Shown here piece by piece: positions 5,112 to 46,972 of a stretch of DNA of 64,000 nucleotides (the first letter of the stretch is position 1; every line of letters starts with the position of its first letter). The translations under genes were made by a program, and so were the position numbers. The DNA comes from Bdellovibrionales bacterium (GTDB lineage Bacteria; Bdellovibrionota; Bdellovibrionia; Bdellovibrionales; Bdellovibrionaceae), in the NCBI GenBank assembly GCA_018266295.1, contig JAFEAQ010000008.1:124001-188000 (forward strand), read 5' to 3'. Under the pieces are notes generated by a model. The model was not told where the DNA came from. It made no database searches and was given only the letters and a program-made list of their open reading frames with translations.

Positions 5112-6052
5112 TGGGGATGAACTTCGTGAGAGCTCTTTTGGTTGGAGTCACAATGATGGCAAGCCTGGCATGGGCTCGTCCTGAAGTGATTTTTCCCAAT
5201 GAAGCTGAAGTTTCAAATACGACGGTGATTTCGGTTTTTCAAGTTGCCGAGTTAAAAGAACTCAGCGGCGTTGCATTTAATGAAATCGCTAAAATGCCTC
5301 TGGTTGATAAAATTGAAACGCAAGACACCCTGACCTTGTCCGGTGAAGATGTTTCCAAAAAACTTCGCGCGCTTGTTAGAAACAGCGAAGTGCTTAAGAA
5401 ACTGAACCCCGCATTTAAAATTCCTTCTGAGATCCGAATTAAGATCCGCCAGGATGGCTTCTCGAAAATCGATCTTGAAAGATCGTTGCGTAATGTTTTG
5501 GCGGCTCGCTGCGGAGAGTGTACTTTTCAAATCCGTTTCAACAACTTGCCGAAAGTGGCTAGCAGAGGTTGGAACATCGATTGGGATCAAGAAATCAAAT
5601 ACGGCTCCTTCATGATTCCGGTGCTTGAAGAAGGTCAGTTTGCCAATAAATGGATTACAGGAACTGCCCGCGTACAAAAACAAGTTCCGGTGGCAAGAAA
5701 GCTCATTCGCTTTGGCGAGCGTCTGCAGGTGGAAGATCTTGAGATGCTAGAGGCAGATATCACATTTGTGAAAGAAGAAACGCCATCGATGGATCAGATC
5801 GTCGGCTTGATTGCAAACCGCAGTTTGACTCCGCGTTCGCCAATCGTTTTGTCGGATCTTAAGCGCGAGCCGGCGGCTCGTCGCGGCCAAGTGGTTAAAG
5901 CTTTGGTTGGTGATCAGAACTTTGAAGTTTCTATGAATGCTTCTGCCGAAGAAAACGGTTTTATTGGCGATGTGATTAAGATCAAAAACACTGAAACGCA
6001 GAAAGTAATGTCGGCAACCGTGATTGAAAAGGGCGTGGTGAAAGTACAATGA
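5111..6052 (+). CDS. flgA: P-ring assembly chaperone FlgA
   Basis: Periplasmic chaperone needed for assembly of FlgI into the P ring. Residues 1-22 form a signal peptide ending in SLAWA. The C-terminal 130 residues form an SAF-type domain (VARKLIRFGERLQVEDLE, then ANRSLTPRSPIVLSDLK) and end with the characteristic NGFIGDVIKIKN. At 313 residues it is longer than enteric FlgA (about 220), with extra sequence at the N-terminal side. A second in-frame ATG lies two codons downstream and could also be used. The gene ends in an ATGA overlap with flgH. Confidence 0.9.
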   Translation: MGMNFVRALLVGVTMMASLAWARPEVIFPNEAEVSNTTVISVFQVAELKELSGVAFNEIAKMPLVDKIETQDTLTLSGEDVSKKLRALVRNSEVLKKLNPAFKIPSEIRIKIRQDGFSKIDLERSLRNVLAARCGECTFQIRFNNLPKVASRGWNIDWDQEIKYGSFMIPVLEEGQFANKWITGTARVQKQVPVARKLIRFGERLQVEDLEMLEADITFVKEETPSMDQIVGLIANRSLTPRSPIVLSDLKREPAARRGQVVKALVGDQNFEVSMNASAEENGFIGDVIKIKNTETQKVMSATVIEKGVVKVQ

Positions 6053-6795
6053 GTCGTTGGTTTTTAAGCTTCATGATGATGACAGCCGTGTTGATGCTTT
6101 CCGGCTGCGCGACAATGAATGAATTCTGGACGCGTGTTTCCGGCAAGCAAGAAGAAGCTGTGGTGACTCCAGATGCTGATGGTGGGTCTGTTCGCTATTC
6201 TGAGAACCCTCAGATGAGTGTGCCATCAAATCGTCAATATAAGCGCATGACTCGCTCTCGTATGGAAGAAGAGGCAGACTTGGGGGCCCAGGCAGGTTCT
6301 ATGTGGGTGATGGAAGGCCAAGGAGCCTATCTGTTTGCTCAGAATAAATCTCGCCGCGAAGGTGATGTGCTCAATGTTAAACTCGATGGTCCATCACTCA
6401 AGCAAGTTGAAACAAAAGTCAATGTGATCAAAAAGCTCTTAAAGCAACTTGAAGAGCAAGAGCTTGCTAATCAAGGTGGCGGCCTCGCGGCAGCAAGCGA
6501 AGGCGATGCGAATCGTGCTCCAGCGGCGGCAAAGCCCGACGAGAAAAAGGATGATGCTAAAGAAGAATTGGCAAACATCCAGCAGATCGGCACAAAAATC
6601 GTCGAGAAGCTCGCAGATGGAAACTATCGCGTGCGTGGTGCTCAGCCATTCATGATCGGCAAACGTGAATACAAAGTCATCGCGGCGGGCCTTGTTCGTC
6701 CAGAGGATTTCAATGACGAAGGCGTCAGCTCTACAAAGCTGATTGATCCTCAATTTGACGTTGTTAGCATCAGAAGGAAGCCAACCAATGAATAA
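6049..6795 (+). CDS. flgH: Flagellar L-ring lipoprotein FlgH
   Basis: Builds the L ring, the bushing in the outer membrane around the distal rod. The N-terminus is a lipoprotein signal with the lipobox LSGC at residues 18-21. The motif SMWVMEGQGAYLFAQNKSRREGD is the FlgH core (residues near 89-111). A charged Ala/Lys/Asp-rich insertion sits between residues 140 and 190. The last 50 residues return to the family pattern (NYRVRGAQPFMIGKREY). It overlaps flgA by 4 bases and flgI by 8. Confidence 0.92.
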   Translation: MSRWFLSFMMMTAVLMLSGCATMNEFWTRVSGKQEEAVVTPDADGGSVRYSENPQMSVPSNRQYKRMTRSRMEEEADLGAQAGSMWVMEGQGAYLFAQNKSRREGDVLNVKLDGPSLKQVETKVNVIKKLLKQLEEQELANQGGGLAAASEGDANRAPAAAKPDEKKDDAKEELANIQQIGTKIVEKLADGNYRVRGAQPFMIGKREYKVIAAGLVRPEDFNDEGVSSTKLIDPQFDVVSIRRKPTNE

Positions 6796-7780
6796 GACTC
6801 TTCTAGCTCTTCTTGTGACACTCATCGGTTATACGGCGTCGGCGGCACGTCTGAAAGACATCGCCAGCATTCGCGGTGTGCGTGAAAATCAGTTGATTGG
6901 TTACGGTATCGTTGTCGGTCTTAAAGGCACGGGCGACGGTAAGAGTGAATTTACTTCGAAATCGATGCTACGTATGCTCGATAAGCTCGGCATGAAGCTT
7001 GATTCTCCGGATTTCCAAGGTAAGAACGTGGCGGCTGTGATCGTGACAGCGACGCTGCCTCCATTCGGTAAGGCCGGAAATCCAATGGATATCACTGTGA
7101 GTGCGATCGGCGAATCACAGAGCTTGCAAGGTGGTACGCTCTTGCAAACTCCGTTGCGTGCAGCAAATGATCAGGTCTTCGCAGTCGCTCAAGGGAGCAT
7201 TATTTTGGGTGGCGACGGTAAAGACGTTCACACGACGTCAGGCAGAATTCCGAATGGTGCGATCATTGAACGTGATGTGACAGGCGACTTTGCCTCTCGC
7301 AAAATGTTCAGAATGACTTTGCACAATCCTGATTTTACGACGGCCGCTCGTACAATTCTGACAATCAATAAAGAGCTTGGCGGCGTGTACGCAACTGCGA
7401 AAGATGCCGGCACAGTAGACATCATTACTCCTGCTGCGTATGAAAATCGCGGCGTAGAATTGCTTGCAACGATTGAAGCAATTGAAATTAATCCTGACAG
7501 TGTTGCTAAAGTTGTTATCAATGAAAAGACCGGCACGATTGTTATCGGTGATAAAGTGAAGATTTCCAAAGTGGCCATTTCGCATGGAAGTCTCGCATTG
7601 AAAGTTGGCGATGGTAAGAAACCATCGGATGACAAAGTGGCGGTTTTAGACACGGGTGTGAGTGTTGGAGATTTAGTCCAGGCTTTGAATAAGCTCGGCG
7701 TCTCTCCAAAGGACCTGATTACAATACTTCAGTCCATCAAGGCAGCTGGAGCTTTGCACGGGGAACTCGACGTTTTATGA
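6788..7780 (+). CDS. flgI: Flagellar P-ring protein FlgI
   Basis: Subunit of the P ring in the peptidoglycan layer. The 330-residue form starting at 6788 is chosen because it gives a clean signal peptide (MNKTLLALLVTLIGYTASAA) and an AGAAGGAAG ribosome site. An upstream start at 6743 would place 15 extra residues before the signal. The mature protein begins with RLKDIASIRGVRENQL and contains GYGIVVGLKGTGDG, both diagnostic. The gene ends in the last 4 bases that overlap a small ORF of uncertain status. Confidence 0.96.
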   Translation: MNKTLLALLVTLIGYTASAARLKDIASIRGVRENQLIGYGIVVGLKGTGDGKSEFTSKSMLRMLDKLGMKLDSPDFQGKNVAAVIVTATLPPFGKAGNPMDITVSAIGESQSLQGGTLLQTPLRAANDQVFAVAQGSIILGGDGKDVHTTSGRIPNGAIIERDVTGDFASRKMFRMTLHNPDFTTAARTILTINKELGGVYATAKDAGTVDIITPAAYENRGVELLATIEAIEINPDSVAKVVINEKTGTIVIGDKVKISKVAISHGSLALKVGDGKKPSDDKVAVLDTGVSVGDLVQALNKLGVSPKDLITILQSIKAAGALHGELDVL

Positions 7781-35960: not shown

Positions 35961-36150
35961 GAAAAAACTGTACAAAAGTAGCGATGGTATTTCAAGATTG
36001 ATTTTTGAAAACTAGACCTTTTATTTGTGGAGTTTTTTGTGAATGAAAATGGAACCAGGACGCACGGCGAAAGTCGGGAAATGTTCCAGGTTCCGCGAAG
36101 CTCATTTTCCGTGCTTGGCCGGGTTTAGAATCGGTTCTAAGATAGTGGCG

Positions 36151-37044
36151 ATGGCAAAAGAAATCGATCAGCTCAAAGAACGTATTCAAGAACTAGAAAT
36201 GGAACTTGTCGCAAAGGACCGCGAACTTCTGAAATATCGTCAGGAGCTCGGCCGAGCCAATGTTTCTTTGGAAAATCTGATTGGGCAAATCACCGAAGAG
36301 ATCCGCATGGCGGGACTCATCCAAAAAATGCTTTCACCCACTCAGCTCCCGAACATCGCCGGCTTTGACTGCAGCACAAAATATCAACCAGGCGATCGTT
36401 ACGGCGGCGACTACTTCGATATTTTTGAGCACGAAGATAAGCTGAAGTTCGGCGTCGTGATCGCCAGCGCTTCAGGCTACACGATGTCAGCACTGTTTCT
36501 GTCGGTGCTAATTAAGATTTCCTCGCAGATTGAGGCCCGCCGCGGCCTGGAACCCCACAAGATGATCGAACTCCTGGCAAAGGAGCTGGTCCCGAATATT
36601 CAGAACAATGACAAGGCCAGTGTGTTTTATGGTGTGATCGATCGCCGTTCGTATGAGCTCAGCTATTGCGGGGTCGGCCGAATAGAAGCCTGTTTACAGG
36701 TTTACGGTCAGGAAAGTCTGCAGACGCTTGAGTCCTGTGGGCCGGCGTTTGCGAAGGATTTTAACACACAGCCACATAGCATGAAACTGCAACTAAACCC
36801 GCGCGATCGCTTGATTCTTGCCACGGAGGGATTGACTCAAGCACAGGATACTCAGGGTAAAATGTGGGGCGGAGAAGGCATGCGCGAGGCGATTCGTATG
36901 GCGCCACGTCAGGGAGTTCATGAACTCCGCAACGAGATTCTCCACCAGAATGAGAAATTCACCGGCCGCCAGACTCCTCTCCGGGATCAGACGGTGATTG
37001 CGATGGAAGTTAAAGACCGAGTCATTAAGCTTGCAAAAAATTAA
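36151..37044 (+). CDS. PP2C/SpoIIE-type Ser/Thr phosphatase
   Basis: A 297-residue soluble protein. Residues 1-45 form a coiled coil (LKERIQELEMELVAKDREL). The PP2C core has QPGDRYGGDYFDIFE, then FGVVIASASGYTMSALFLS, and LRDQTVIAMEV, placing the metal-binding acidic residues, although the usual DVSGHG is changed to ASASGY. That substitution may reduce metal binding at one site. Family members dephosphorylate anti-sigma antagonists. The ATG at 36151 precedes the coil; an upstream frame from 36043 has atypical sequence. Confidence 0.75.
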   Translation: MAKEIDQLKERIQELEMELVAKDRELLKYRQELGRANVSLENLIGQITEEIRMAGLIQKMLSPTQLPNIAGFDCSTKYQPGDRYGGDYFDIFEHEDKLKFGVVIASASGYTMSALFLSVLIKISSQIEARRGLEPHKMIELLAKELVPNIQNNDKASVFYGVIDRRSYELSYCGVGRIEACLQVYGQESLQTLESCGPAFAKDFNTQPHSMKLQLNPRDRLILATEGLTQAQDTQGKMWGGEGMREAIRMAPRQGVHELRNEILHQNEKFTGRQTPLRDQTVIAMEVKDRVIKLAKN

Positions 37045-41239: not shown

Positions 41240-42973
41240 ATGTCGGATTCTGAAGAGAGTAATAAATCACAGCAAATCATTGAACTCGATTTCGATTTCA
41301 ATGAGGTTCAAGTTGTTTCTGAGGCCTTCTTTAAGGAGTCTGAAGAAATACTTTCTGATCTTGATGATCATATTTTGCGCCTTGAGGCTCATCCTCATGA
41401 TGAGATTCTGTTACAAGGACTTTTCCGCAAAGTTCATACCCTTAAAGGCAGTGTTGGAGCAGTTCCTGGTGGTCAGCTTTTGGGATCTTTGTCGCACGAG
41501 TTTGAGACGTTGCTGGAACGCCTGCGTAAGCAGAAAATCTTGCCGACAAAAGAGTGCATTGAAATTTTCCTTCATAGCTCACGCATTTTGAAAGTTCTAG
41601 CGGAGAACTTACGCACTCATCGCGAAATCTATCCCGAAGAGCTCAGTGAGGCGATCGAGCTGATCGCTCGCTATGGAGCGTTCCAGCTTACGTCGACAGA
41701 GTCTGCAACCACAGAGCGCAGCGCTGTTGTGGAACCTGAAATTGAAGCCTCTCGCAATAAAGAAGATGGGATCTGGCTCTCACAAGAACATATGGCGTCA
41801 CTTATGCAGCTTTCAAGCGATTTCATTCTGTTGAAGAACTCTTTCCAGAACATGCTGGATACAAAAGAAGACGCCGCGGAAAAACTCACGGTTAAAAAAG
41901 TGCTCGAGCGCCAAGGCACATTGTCGCATTCTTTGAATGCGCTTTCAGATCAATTCCAGGGCATTTTGGATAAAGCCCAGAAGCTGCCGTTAAAAGAAGC
42001 TTTTGCGGGACTTGTGCCTCTCGTTCGCCAAGCCGCTTATGAATTAAAGAAAGACGTTCGCTTTGAAGATGTCGGCTTTGAGCTCGAAGTCGATAAGGTC
42101 CTGGCGCACGATATGTATAAAGCTTTAATGCACATGGTGCGAAACTCTCTCGATCACGGGATTGAAAAACCCGAGGATCGAACCGCTGCCGGTAAGCCTA
42201 TGCAAGGGGTGTTGCGTATTTCTCTCGAAGAGAAATCTTCTGTGATTCACTGTGTGGTGAAGGACGATGGGCGTGGTCTTGATAGAGAACGCATTTTGCA
42301 ACGAGCTCTTGCCAAGGGCTTGACGAATGCTTTGGAAGCATCACAAATGCCCGAGGAAAAGATTTTCTCTTTCATTTTCCATCCGGGTTTTTCGACGAAA
42401 GAAAAAATCACCACGATGTCGGGCCGTGGTGTTGGTATGGACGTTGTGCAGAATATAGTCACAAAGTACGGTGGCCAGATTGAAATCAAATCAAAAGCAG
42501 GCGAGGGATCTGAGATCTCTTTGCATATTCCTGTGCCGAAGAAGCTTTTGGTTGAACGCTGTCTCCTGGCGAGTTGGAGCGAGTTTACGTTTGCGTTCCC
42601 GCTATCTGAAGTTTCGCATATCAGCTCTTGTGATGAGTTGCATATTACTGACGTTGACCATCTGCGCTTCTGTCAGTTTGAAAACCGCACAGTGCCGCTT
42701 ATGACTTTTGAAGAAATTTATCAGTTTAAGAATTTATTGCCTTTGGATCATGTTAAGAAGATGTCTGTTGTCTTCTTGCATGTTCAAGATTTCCATTTGG
42801 GAATTCTTGTCGACAAGATTGATCATCAGACAGACTTAGTGATCAAGTCTTTCGGGGGCCTCATTAAGAAAACCCCTGGCTTTAAGGGCAATTCCGTTTT
42901 GACGGATGAAGAAATCGCTTATGTCGTAGATTCGACGGAGCTGCAGACCTTGTTGCAGAAGGAGAGCGCATGA
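41240..42973 (+). CDS. cheA: Chemotaxis histidine kinase CheA
   Basis: A 577-residue cytoplasmic kinase. The P1 HPt domain has His66 in RKVHTLKGSVGA. A linker of about 40 residues follows, with no recognisable P2 (CheY-binding) domain. Then come the dimerization helices, the ATPase (MVRNSLDHGIEKPEDR from about residue 297, then DDGRGLD and GRGVGMDVV) and a C-terminal CheW-like P5 domain from about 435. Absence of P2 makes it shorter than E. coli CheA (654). It overlaps the CheW-like gene by 4 bases. It is driven by a sigma28-type promoter. Confidence 0.93.
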   Translation: MSDSEESNKSQQIIELDFDFNEVQVVSEAFFKESEEILSDLDDHILRLEAHPHDEILLQGLFRKVHTLKGSVGAVPGGQLLGSLSHEFETLLERLRKQKILPTKECIEIFLHSSRILKVLAENLRTHREIYPEELSEAIELIARYGAFQLTSTESATTERSAVVEPEIEASRNKEDGIWLSQEHMASLMQLSSDFILLKNSFQNMLDTKEDAAEKLTVKKVLERQGTLSHSLNALSDQFQGILDKAQKLPLKEAFAGLVPLVRQAAYELKKDVRFEDVGFELEVDKVLAHDMYKALMHMVRNSLDHGIEKPEDRTAAGKPMQGVLRISLEEKSSVIHCVVKDDGRGLDRERILQRALAKGLTNALEASQMPEEKIFSFIFHPGFSTKEKITTMSGRGVGMDVVQNIVTKYGGQIEIKSKAGEGSEISLHIPVPKKLLVERCLLASWSEFTFAFPLSEVSHISSCDELHITDVDHLRFCQFENRTVPLMTFEEIYQFKNLLPLDHVKKMSVVFLHVQDFHLGILVDKIDHQTDLVIKSFGGLIKKTPGFKGNSVLTDEEIAYVVDSTELQTLLQKESA

Positions 42974-43737
42974 GTGCATTAGCTTTAGATGAATTTGCTC
43001 TTGAGATGCGTCAGCATTATATCACGACGACAGTGGAGTCGTTGGAGCGCTTTAAGACCTTTGAAAATTATTTTGGTGAAATTAAGCTCGCAGTCGACGA
43101 TTGGATCGCGGAAGCGCGTTCTAATGAGATGAGCCATTTTGTCGGACTATTGGAAATTCTAAAAAACGCCGTTGCAAACGGTGATATTGGCGGCAAAGAA
43201 GACTCTCTTTGGGTGTCAGCTGCTTTAATGGAATACCTGGAATTATTGAAGACCCGTGCTGATTCGCCGGTTTTCTTTGAAAAATATCATTCAATTTTCC
43301 GCAGCCACTTAGACGAAGGGGCTCAGCTTTATTTGCAATGCGTGCGAGATCAGCATGCATTTCTAGTTCCGGTTAAAAACGTGATTGAAATCGTTGGCGG
43401 TAAGAAGGTTTATGCATTGCCAATGGCGCAAAGTGGAGTGCGTGGCCTCATGGGTTTCCGGGGGCAGGGGATTCCAGTTATGAATTTGGCGGATTTTGGT
43501 TTTAACAAACAAAATGAGAGTAGCGGCGCAAAAACCTATTTTGTGGTCTGTGAGTACGAAGACTCTTTCTTCGCGCTCGAAGTGAATGCCACCGAAGATG
43601 TTTTAGAAATAGAAGCCTCTCAATTTCAAAAATGCTCAGAGTCCAACTTGCTTTCTCCGATCGTTGATCAATTTGTGATTCACGAAGAAAAATCTCTGAT
43701 GCTTTTAGATATCGAAAAATTGGTGGGACATGAATAA
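42970..43737 (+). CDS. CheW-like protein with helical N-terminal extension
   Basis: A 255-residue adaptor. The first 115 residues are helical and not recognised. The CheW domain follows, from QLYLQCVRDQHAFLVPVKNV through LPMAQSGVRGLMGFRGQGIP and NLADF, to a final LLDIEKLVG. It would link CheA to chemoreceptors. The extension could be a localisation or output module. It overlaps both cheA (4 bases) and the CheD-CheB gene (8 bases). Confidence 0.85.
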   Translation: MSALALDEFALEMRQHYITTTVESLERFKTFENYFGEIKLAVDDWIAEARSNEMSHFVGLLEILKNAVANGDIGGKEDSLWVSAALMEYLELLKTRADSPVFFEKYHSIFRSHLDEGAQLYLQCVRDQHAFLVPVKNVIEIVGGKKVYALPMAQSGVRGLMGFRGQGIPVMNLADFGFNKQNESSGAKTYFVVCEYEDSFFALEVNATEDVLEIEASQFQKCSESNLLSPIVDQFVIHEEKSLMLLDIEKLVGHE

Positions 43738-45298
43738 GCACTATCTTTTTCCTGGCAAGCTTGCGGCTTTTAGAGAAGAAACCCAGATTTCGACTCTTTT
43801 GGGTTCTTGCGTGTCCGTGGCGCTCTTTGATCCAGAAACAAGAATCGGCGGATTGAATCACTATCTTCTGCCGGAGCTGGGTCCAAATGATGTTGGCAAT
43901 CCTCGTTATGGAACCTCGGCCATCACTATGTTGATTGAAGAGATGGTTCGCCTTGGTGCTTCAGAAAAGCGCCTTCAGGCAAAAATCTACGGCGGTGGGA
44001 ATGTGATCGCGGTGTCTCCCATGGGGGAAAGCATCGGCCGTCGCAATATTGAAGTCGCTGAACAAATGATGCGGGAACGAGGAATTCGCGTTGTTGAGAA
44101 AAACGTTGGCGGTGAGTCCGGCCGGACTTTAAAGCTTAATACGGCGACCTTTGATGTGCTTCACAATTTTAGCAATGAAGGAGCGGGGGCCAGTGCGACG
44201 GTGGACGTCTCTGGTTTTAAACCGCTCGCAGTTGCAAAGTCTGTAAAGGTCTTGATTGTCGATGACTCGGCAACGGTCAGAACGCTGTTTACAAATATTT
44301 TCCAGAAGAGTGGCCTTGAGGTCGTGGGCGCCGCTGCGGATGCTTATCAGGCTCGCGAACTGATTGCCTCCAAGAAACCGGATGTTTTGACTTTAGATAT
44401 CGAGATGCCGCGGATGAGCGGCGTGATGTTCCTTGAAAAGCTTATGAAGTTCCAACCGACTCCGGTGGTTATGGTGTCGTCACTTGGAAGTACCGGGGAA
44501 GCAGCGATGAAATCGTTGGAGCTTGGCGCCGTGGAGTTCGTTCATAAGCCTTCGCAATTTGACCCGCAAATTCTGAAAGACCTCGCTGGGACGCTTGTTG
44601 AAAAAGTGCGTGCAGCGGCGTCTGTGAATGTTTTAAAGAAAATGAAAGAAAAGCCGGCACCATCTCCGATTGCTGACATGAATATTTCAGCCAGTGCGAA
44701 GATGAAAAAGAAAACGGCAGAACTCAAGGTCGTTGTGATGGGCGGAAATGCCGGTAGTGCAACAGCGGTAGAAAAAGTTTTGGAAGGCCTCGCGGTGGAT
44801 ACTCCGCCGGTGGTGATCTCTTGCAGTATCGTGACGAACTTCTTGGAAAGCTTCCTTCAGAAGATGAAGGGAAAAACGAAGGTCACGTTATCGGCTGCAA
44901 AAGACGGCGACTGGCTCCGTATGGGGAATGTTTACTTCATTCCGGCGGGCCATCATGGCAAAGTCCTCAATACGGCTAACGGTCCGCAATTGAAGCTCGA
45001 AAAAGGCGCTCCTGTGGCGTCGCAAATCCCGTCAGCCAATGTCCTTTTCCAATCAGCAGCGCAGGCATATGCGGGTGGCGTGTATGGAATTCTCCTTGGA
45101 GGCTTTGGTGTGGATGGAGTGGATGGCTTGACCGCTATTCAAAACAAAGGCGGAATGACCGTGGTTCAGCATCCTGAGGAAGCTCAGTTCCCTTACGCTC
45201 CACAGAAAGCAATTGAAGTTGGTGTGGCTGAACAAATCACCGAAACCAACGAAATCGCAGCTCGCCTTATGCAATACCGTAACCAAACTGTATTCTAA
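43730..45298 (+). CDS. CheD-CheB fusion, esterase active site degenerate
   Basis: A 522-residue fusion. Residues 1-160 are CheD, the receptor glutamine deamidase, with Thr22, Cys27 (LLGSCVSVALFDP) and His44 (GLNHYLLP) intact. Residues 170-295 are a CheB receiver with Asp178, Asp179, phospho-Asp223 (LDIEMPRMSG) and Lys273. Residues 332-522 follow the CheB methylesterase fold, but the nucleophile Ser of GAST is Asn340 (GGNAGS) and the His of TQHMP is Ser366; only Asp462 of the triad remains. The esterase is therefore probably inactive. No cheR or cheY is nearby. Start ATG overlaps the previous gene. Confidence 0.88.
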   Translation: MNKHYLFPGKLAAFREETQISTLLGSCVSVALFDPETRIGGLNHYLLPELGPNDVGNPRYGTSAITMLIEEMVRLGASEKRLQAKIYGGGNVIAVSPMGESIGRRNIEVAEQMMRERGIRVVEKNVGGESGRTLKLNTATFDVLHNFSNEGAGASATVDVSGFKPLAVAKSVKVLIVDDSATVRTLFTNIFQKSGLEVVGAAADAYQARELIASKKPDVLTLDIEMPRMSGVMFLEKLMKFQPTPVVMVSSLGSTGEAAMKSLELGAVEFVHKPSQFDPQILKDLAGTLVEKVRAAASVNVLKKMKEKPAPSPIADMNISASAKMKKKTAELKVVVMGGNAGSATAVEKVLEGLAVDTPPVVISCSIVTNFLESFLQKMKGKTKVTLSAAKDGDWLRMGNVYFIPAGHHGKVLNTANGPQLKLEKGAPVASQIPSANVLFQSAAQAYAGGVYGILLGGFGVDGVDGLTAIQNKGGMTVVQHPEEAQFPYAPQKAIEVGVAEQITETNEIAARLMQYRNQTVF

Positions 45299-45523
45299 AA
45301 AGGTACCAGGTCGCTTTTCGGAATTGACTTGGTACCCAAACGGGGATTCGGAAGCAAGGCAAAGTACTTAGCAGAAAACTTCGCAGGCACGCCCTCCAGG
45401 CTCGACAGCGTCCGCCCTTTGGGCGGATTTGCGCCTCCTGCGCCCCTGAGTCCCACTCAGTTCTTTGCCTTGCTTCCGAATTGTTTAGATATGTCAATTC
45501 CGAAAAGCGACCTGGTACCTTTT
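45298..45523. repeat. Cruciform element 1
   Basis: Perfect 31-bp outer arms at 45298-45328 and 45493-45523, then perfect 18-bp inner arms at 45347-45364 and 45463-45480 that continue imperfectly inward. The central 98 bases contain a GC-rich hairpin (TCCGCCC, TTT, GGGCGGA) and a second, smaller one (GCGC, CTCCT, GCGC). It starts within the 3' end of cheD-cheB and ends 48 bases before the aldehyde dehydrogenase-like gene. The core matches elements 2 and 3; the arms do not. Confidence 0.9.
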
Positions 45524-45571
45524 CGGGGGCTTTTCTTGCTTTTTGGGGGGAATTGCAGGATCTTGGGGGCC

Positions 45572-46972
45572 ATGGGCGCACAGGAGTTTCTCAATTTTAT
45601 TGATGGCGAATTTTCTCAATCTCAAAGCAAAGCCAGCTTTGCAAAGACCAATCCGTTTAATGGCGAGGTTCTCGGGAATGTCGCAGCGTCTGATGCCATG
45701 GATGTGATCCGTGCGATTCAAGCTGCCAAACGCGCCCAAACTGAAATGGAAAAATGGACTCTCGCCCAACGAGCGGAGTTGTTGACCAGCATCGCCGCGA
45801 AGCTTGAAGAAAAAGCCGAAGAGTACGCCTACGAAGAAGCTCTTCACCAAGGCTTGCCGTTAAACTTTGTGCGTGAGAAAAGTTTGCAGTACGCCATTCA
45901 ACAATTCCGTACGGCGGCTGAAGCTGTTTTAAGGTTTGAGCAAAGCAAATCACAAAACTTACAAGCACAGCCGACGGGAATTATTTCGATCGTTCTTTCC
46001 TGGAATCTTTCACTGCGTTTATTGGCGGAGCGTTTAGCTCCAGCACTGGCTGCGGGAAATATCTGTCTTGTTAAGATCTCAGAACTTTCTCCGGTGACTG
46101 CGAAAATCATGGGCGAAGTGCTGACAGCGGCAAATGCACCGAAAGGTCTTGTGCAGTTGATTCAGGGCCGTGGTTCAGAAGTGGGCGCATTGCTTGCGGC
46201 TCATCCTTCGATCCGTGCGGTGAATTTCGTCGGTAAATTAACGAATGCAGAAAAAATCACGCAGGGGGCTTTGCCACAGTTTAAGAAAGTACAAATCCAC
46301 TCGGGTGTTAAAAACAATATCTTTGTTTTGAATGAAGTCGATTTCCAAAACAAGATGCCGCAGATTCTTGAAAGTTTTTTGATCGGCCAGGGGCAACTCT
46401 GCTGGAACACGACCAGAATTTTCGTTCTGGAGTCTTTCCAGAAAGAATTCACTGAAAAGTTAAAAGAATACTTAGCGAGCCTCAAGCCCGCGACGTCACC
46501 AAAAGATTCAAGTCCTTGGTTACCGGTGATCCAAGCGGAAGTTTTGCAACAACTCGAAGCCAAAGCTCAGCAAATCAAAATGGAAGAAGGCAAGCTGATC
46601 GCCGGTGGCGCAAAGGCCGACAGCACTGGTTACTTCTTCCAGCCGACGGTGAGCCTCGATCTACCGAACTGTTCAGAGATGCAACAAGAAGAAATCCGCG
46701 GTCCAATTCTGATTTTAACGGCGGTGAAATATCAGCACGAGATGGTGAAGTGGGCGAATACCGGTTACTACGGTCATTCGGCTGTCATCTGGGCGCCGAA
46801 TTCAGAAAAAGCGCTGAAGGTTGCCGAGAAGATCGATGTGGGGACGGTGTCTGTGAACTCTTGGTTCCCTGTGAACTTTGAGCCCGGTCATCGCCAAACG
46901 ACGTTTGGCCTTGTGGATATGGGGCCATGGGAAAGATTCTATTCTGACGTCAAAGTCTTGACGGGTCTCTAA
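45572..46972 (+). CDS. Aldehyde dehydrogenase-like protein lacking the catalytic Glu motif
   Basis: A 466-residue member of the ALDH superfamily. The Cys is present in IGQGQLCWNTTRIFV and the later QEEIRGPILIL motif is present. The NAD-binding segments are altered (VLSWNLSLRLLAERLAPALA, VKISELSPVTA, NFVGK), and the usual ELGGK that supplies the general base Glu reads QIHSGVKNN. Activity is doubtful, or it uses a different reaction. The ATG at 45572 has a TTGGGGG ribosome site; an upstream frame through the cruciform element adds 81 residues of unlikely sequence. Confidence 0.8.
   Translation: MGAQEFLNFIDGEFSQSQSKASFAKTNPFNGEVLGNVAASDAMDVIRAIQAAKRAQTEMEKWTLAQRAELLTSIAAKLEEKAEEYAYEEALHQGLPLNFVREKSLQYAIQQFRTAAEAVLRFEQSKSQNLQAQPTGIISIVLSWNLSLRLLAERLAPALAAGNICLVKISELSPVTAKIMGEVLTAANAPKGLVQLIQGRGSEVGALLAAHPSIRAVNFVGKLTNAEKITQGALPQFKKVQIHSGVKNNIFVLNEVDFQNKMPQILESFLIGQGQLCWNTTRIFVLESFQKEFTEKLKEYLASLKPATSPKDSSPWLPVIQAEVLQQLEAKAQQIKMEEGKLIAGGAKADSTGYFFQPTVSLDLPNCSEMQQEEIRGPILILTAVKYQHEMVKWANTGYYGHSAVIWAPNSEKALKVAEKIDVGTVSVNSWFPVNFEPGHRQTTFGLVDMGPWERFYSDVKVLTGL

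Follow-up and report, generated by a model that had tools for sequence, protein, structure and literature searches.

We describe here a chemotaxis protein of a Bdellovibrionales bacterium that joins CheD, a receiver and a CheB-type domain in one chain, and whose CheB-type domain has lost the catalytic serine and histidine of a methylesterase. Judged from comparison of relatives, this loss has a single origin and the dead domain is under purifying selection. Our preferred reading, to which we give a probability of roughly 0.45 and hence a little less than even odds, is that of a pseudo-esterase module which is driven by CheA, controls CheD or sets its position, and probably cooperates with a live CheB. 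In general terms, pseudoenzymes, neighboring CheD and CheB, and fusions among chemotaxis proteins are already known. Our literature search, whose scope did not extend to subscription literature, turned up no fusion of CheD with a catalytically dead CheB.

Results

The fusion gene and its operon

The window, the 64,000-nucleotide stretch that was analysed (G000:C8:124001-188000), belongs to a genome of 4.2 Mb in 23 contigs. Translation gives the fusion from one open frame. It comes third in a series of overlapping genes, after cheA and cheW (Table 1). An aldehyde dehydrogenase gene (45329-46972) comes after it, here and in most related genomes. Pfam matches cover residues 56-144 (CheD, PF03975, 8.7e-24), 174-277 (Response_reg, 3.6e-25) and 335-513 (CheB_methylest, PF01339, 5.9e-36). 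In the operon CheA, no P2 domain was found with Pfam. The N-terminal part of the CheW-like protein (about 115 aa) is likewise without a Pfam match, and CheW-like orthologs in the tandem operons described below are longer (325-444 aa). Upstream of the fusion locus lies a gene for a SpoIIE-type phosphatase with a coiled coil (36043-37044); such a phosphatase gene adjoining citrate synthase and HIT genes is conserved in relatives of genus g19.

Table 1. Coordinates of the fusion gene, its domains and key codons, and the preceding operon genes (positions in the window).
Feature	Position	Strand	Remarks
operon cheA	41240..42973	+	577 aa; Hpt, HATPase and CheW domains
cheW-like gene	42970..43737	+	255 aa; CheW domain C-terminal; overlaps each neighbor by 4-8 bases
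cheD-REC-cheB(dead) fusion gene	43730..45298	+	522 aa
CheD domain, residues 1-150	43730..44179	+	Thr22/Cys27/His44 intact; Foldseek match to 2f9z_C
receiver domain, residues 171-290	44240..44599	+	Asp178/179, Asp223, Ser251 and Lys273 intact
phospho-acceptor Asp223 codon of the receiver	44396-44398	+	
pseudo-methylesterase domain, residues 331-515	44720..45274	+	CheB fold without Ser/His
Asn340 codon	44747..44749	+	aligns with nucleophile Ser164 of Salmonella CheB
Ser366 codon	44825..44827	+	aligns with catalytic His190 of Salmonella CheB
Asp462 codon	45113..45115	+	aligns with catalytic Asp286 of Salmonella CheB; retained

A CheB fold without the catalytic serine and histidine

The catalytic residues of Salmonella CheB are the nucleophile Ser164, His190 and Asp286. 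Alignment to this enzyme (1A2O/1CHD; 32% identity to 1A2O in the Foldseek alignment) bears out the replacement of serine and histidine that the initial annotation had read from the sequence, and places Phe459 at the position of Met283. Its further statement that the CheD residues and the receiver are intact holds as well, all the residues listed in Table 1 being present. The fusion thus resembles CheB of Salmonella and of its own genome in the receiver, the CheB fold and the equivalent of Asp286, and differs from them in Asn for Ser164, Ser for His190, Phe for Met283 and the CheD domain in front. By family and fold the C-terminal part is a CheB, and an N-terminal receiver that is phosphorylatable by sequence precedes it. 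However, the scores stay below the NCBIfam cut-offs for CheB (253 bits against 293 for NF001965, 229 against 342 for NF009206), and because the defining Ser-His-Asp triad is missing we do not class the fusion as a CheB methylesterase.

The AF2 model of the protein (mean pLDDT 74.8, pTM 0.52, the CheB domain mostly 83-95) is good for single domains, not for their arrangement. Foldseek matches its CheB domain to 1CHD (rmsd 1.5, TMt 0.88) and 3SFT (TMt 0.93), the receiver to 3t8y and the CheD domain to 2f9z_C (TMt 0.79), and a strand-turn-helix surrounds Asn340 in the model. The CheB fold is hence predicted to be kept. The initial annotation had asked whether another Ser/His might fill the triad; in the conservation count, none of the Ser, Thr or Cys residues that might take the place of the nucleophile is invariant across the relatives that share the loss (the dead clade), and no pair of Ser/Cys and His is conserved through it.

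Origin and distribution of the dead fusion

Members of the dead clade were collected by a protein search of relatives in the order followed by alignment, and one genome of a distant family (G273) was added; it is included in all counts of 31. Asn at position 340 and Asp at position 462 are each found in 31 of 31 members, while position 366 holds Ser, Ala or Thr and never His. Since identical substitutions are shared by more than 20 genomes that were sequenced independently, some of them to completion, neither sequencing error nor chance can account for them. No stop codons interrupt the fusion, which persists in lineages as far apart as Bdellovibrio, G273 and L118.

All other CheD-CheB fusions that we found in the phylum (20/20) have a complete triad, so that the idea that such fusions lose it in general was rejected. 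In a CheB-domain tree, built without the active-site columns and before G273 was found, a branch with 100/100 support sets all dead domains apart; the eight triad-intact fusions that were included fall outside the dead clade. The CheD parts of dead and intact fusions also separate, with weaker support (95/72), and neither tree thus unites the two as descendants of one fusion. As the other 20 keep their triad, the loss belongs to one of two fusions that arose separately: the sequences suggest that the CheD-CheB fusion probably arose at least twice in the phylum and that one of the two fusions was inactivated a single time, early on.

Among viral contigs no relative was found. Plasmids yielded one truncated copy, on the Bdellovibrio plasmid pBdHAGR1 (L081, AP029177.1), where positions 5240-7053 hold cheW and a fusion copy that ends at residue 347, with the dead domain mostly missing, downstream of an IS21-type istB gene. 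The other plasmid matches listed are partial or in two pieces, and in some of them cheB and cheD are annotated as separate genes. A different protein, excluded from the counts, is a 661-aa CheR-receiver protein from a Bdellovibrionales MAG (L129, 1859-3844), whose C-terminal tail aligns weakly to CheB, lacks the triad and is possibly another dead CheB, here fused to CheR.

Constraint on the dead domain

For genus pairs with usable dS, the dead domain has dN/dS values of roughly 0.02-0.09, which resemble those of CheD; the linkers are far looser. Such ratios, far below 1, indicate that the dead domain is under purifying selection and disfavor a neutral relic. The constraint is weaker than on the live enzyme: over 66 pairs, mean identity is 0.41 for the dead domain and 0.65 for live CheB from the same set of genomes, so that the dead domain is the faster to diverge. 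The receiver is the most conserved part of the fusion (mean identity 0.90 in the genus) and is about as conserved as the receiver of live CheB, or more so.

Live CheB next to the fusion in relatives

About 20 genomes, including Bdellovibrio and the window genome, have the operon cheA-cheW-fusion, and others show the order cheR-cheA-cheW-fusion-cheB. A triad-intact CheB lies directly downstream of the fusion in eight cases (G066, G003, G080, G087, G088, G273, L115 and L118), usually with overlapping codons; cheR, cheA and cheW often precede the pair. L118 is a Silvanigrella MAG; L115 is a MAG labelled Betaproteobacteria, and its contig is possibly mis-binned. In the CheB-domain tree the tandem live CheBs cluster with the canonical enzyme of Bdellovibrio and of the window genome, so that in the window lineage the partner has probably moved rather than been lost.

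Four of the eight tandem pairs keep both receivers. The live CheB of L115 (7560-8186) consists of the catalytic domain only (208 aa); it starts on the stop codon of a dead fusion whose receiver is intact. Decayed live CheB receivers are seen in G087 (E-D-D-gap-L) and G273 (E-E-D-L-I), compared with D-D-D-S-K, while the fusion receivers of both keep D-D-D and K, with Gln at the Ser position in G273. The situation is reversed in G088 (L058, 5255-6394), where CheD is joined straight to the dead CheB and an intact receiver-CheB comes next. Each of the eight pairs therefore has at least one receiver, a small sample for which we claim no significance.

Joint loss of cheA and the receiver-CheB part

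Two genomes (G005, G012) and four of genus g19 carry CheD alone at the same locus, flanked by the aldehyde dehydrogenase gene or by the HIT/citrate synthase genes, and have lost cheA and cheW too. These CheDs are 52-62% identical to that of the fusion; G032 also has CheD alone, with 42% identity. The CheD-only genes nest among the dead-fusion CheDs in the CheD tree, which requires at least two separate changes to CheD alone on its starred branches; the best tree implies three or four losses. Where the fusion has its receiver, an ortholog of the operon cheA was found at E <= 5e-98 in the genomes tested, with the exceptions of G087 (64% complete), which has no clear ortholog, and G273, whose neighboring CheA is divergent (28%). 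The cognate cheA is absent from the CheD-only genomes (G005, G012, G060-G063, G032) and also from G088, whose fusion is without receiver. The simplest reading of this pattern of genes would be that the receiver-CheB part is a module facing CheA and that CheD is useful by itself.

Other chemotaxis genes in the genome

An intact CheB of 352 aa (G000:C8:19677-20735) is encoded elsewhere in the genome, within a run of cheA, cheR and cheB (C8:16.7-20.7 kb). C11 carries a single-domain CheB with CheR, and C14 a second CheD with receptor and CheR. In total there are three CheR and 16 receptors; 44 methylation-like sites were counted in the 12 receptors examined, 18 of them with Gln. The initial annotation had suggested looking for cheR and an intact cheB elsewhere, and both are there. 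It had also stated that receptor demethylation, if any, needs another CheB, which stands insofar as an intact CheB with CheR exists but is over-stated, because CheD itself might demethylate: both NCBIfam NF041119 and the literature (PMC3447774) describe CheD as a glutamine deamidase/glutamate methylesterase. We had considered the fusion as the sole regulator of CheD in a genome without a CheC-type protein. This was rejected, as a CheX-like protein of 168 aa is present, and CheD may thus be controlled otherwise.

Discussion

The fusion may act like a phosphorylation-gated CheB without the chemistry. The operon CheA would phosphorylate Asp223, and this would shift the receiver off the CheB-fold domain, as in normal CheB. 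The dead domain would still bind the methylation helices of receptors, or the live CheB, without hydrolysis, and this binding could set where and when CheD acts, or when CheD leaves the receptors. Demethylation would fall to the live CheB. In several relatives the gene for this enzyme directly follows the fusion, and in some of these the enzyme lacks a working receiver of its own. A phosphorylation-controlled CheD or a scaffold was also what the initial annotation had proposed. We regard this as plausible, and the fact that cheA and the receiver-CheB part have been lost jointly points there.

In Bacillus subtilis, binding of CheD to CheC and receptors, tuned by CheY-P, outweighs its deamidase activity (PMC3513319). 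The likeness is that CheA output would govern the action of CheD on receptors, and the fusion might do in one chain what CheC and CheY-P do there. The analogy is functional only: here the phosphorylated receiver would sit in the same chain and a CheB fold would replace CheC. CheD of Thermotoga maritima (2f9z) has the same fold and the same Thr/Cys/His and is a stand-alone protein, whereas here it is fused. Triad-intact CheD-CheB fusions of the same phylum (such as G116, G061 and G202) share the order CheD-REC-CheB; however, they form a separate clade for both the CheD and the CheB part, keep the full Ser/His/Asp triad and are usually found in operons with mcp and cheR, without a second CheB.

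The fusion could instead be chiefly a regulatory subunit of live CheB, in which the two CheB folds pair, the receiver gates the esterase in trans and CheD is a passenger with a second activity. The eight fusions directly before a live CheB fit this, as do the pairs that have given up one receiver, on the side of the live CheB in L115, G087 and G273 and of the fusion in G088. However, half of the tandem pairs retain both receivers, and in Bdellovibrio and the window genome fusion and live CheB belong to different operons and each has an intact receiver, so that the partner idea is weaker there. It also counts against this reading that, to our knowledge, no contact between two CheB chains has been described. 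We consider it a possible but rather unlikely account. Doubtful, too, is an obligate pair of pseudoenzyme and enzyme in which one receiver, on either protein, would control CheD and the live esterase in trans; if it were true, receptor deamidation and demethylation would be driven by a single phosphorylation event.

A phosphate sink or decoy, in which the receiver and the dead domain would do no more than drain CheA or compete with live CheB at receptors while CheD works independently, would agree with the strong conservation of the receiver and its loss together with cheA. A receiver alone would suffice for this, but selection has preserved the dead domain, which G088 has retained after losing its receiver; we judge a sink improbable. 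Still less credit is due to a decaying relic carried along by a useful CheD and receiver. Its faster divergence than live CheB, its deletion with the receiver in the CheD-only lineages and the truncated copy on pBdHAGR1 would suit a relic, but not the low dN/dS, the invariant Asn340 and Asp462, the intact fold and the persistence over such distances without stop codons. Catalysis by the CheB-fold domain through other residues is very hard to credit: His409, which corresponds to Salmonella His256, is kept in most members of the dead clade but missing in G066, G136 and G273, and an invariant Ser, Thr or Cys substitute is lacking.

If the CheA-driven module that we prefer is right, chemotaxis adaptation would include a conserved pseudo-methylesterase, and CheA phosphorylation would be coupled to CheD within a single chain. 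The lineages in which one receiver has been lost or has decayed (L115, G087, G273 and G088) make the question of how dead and live CheB relate testable. The dead CheB part has been kept across many relatives of predatory bacteria, where it probably serves control or docking alongside a live CheB.
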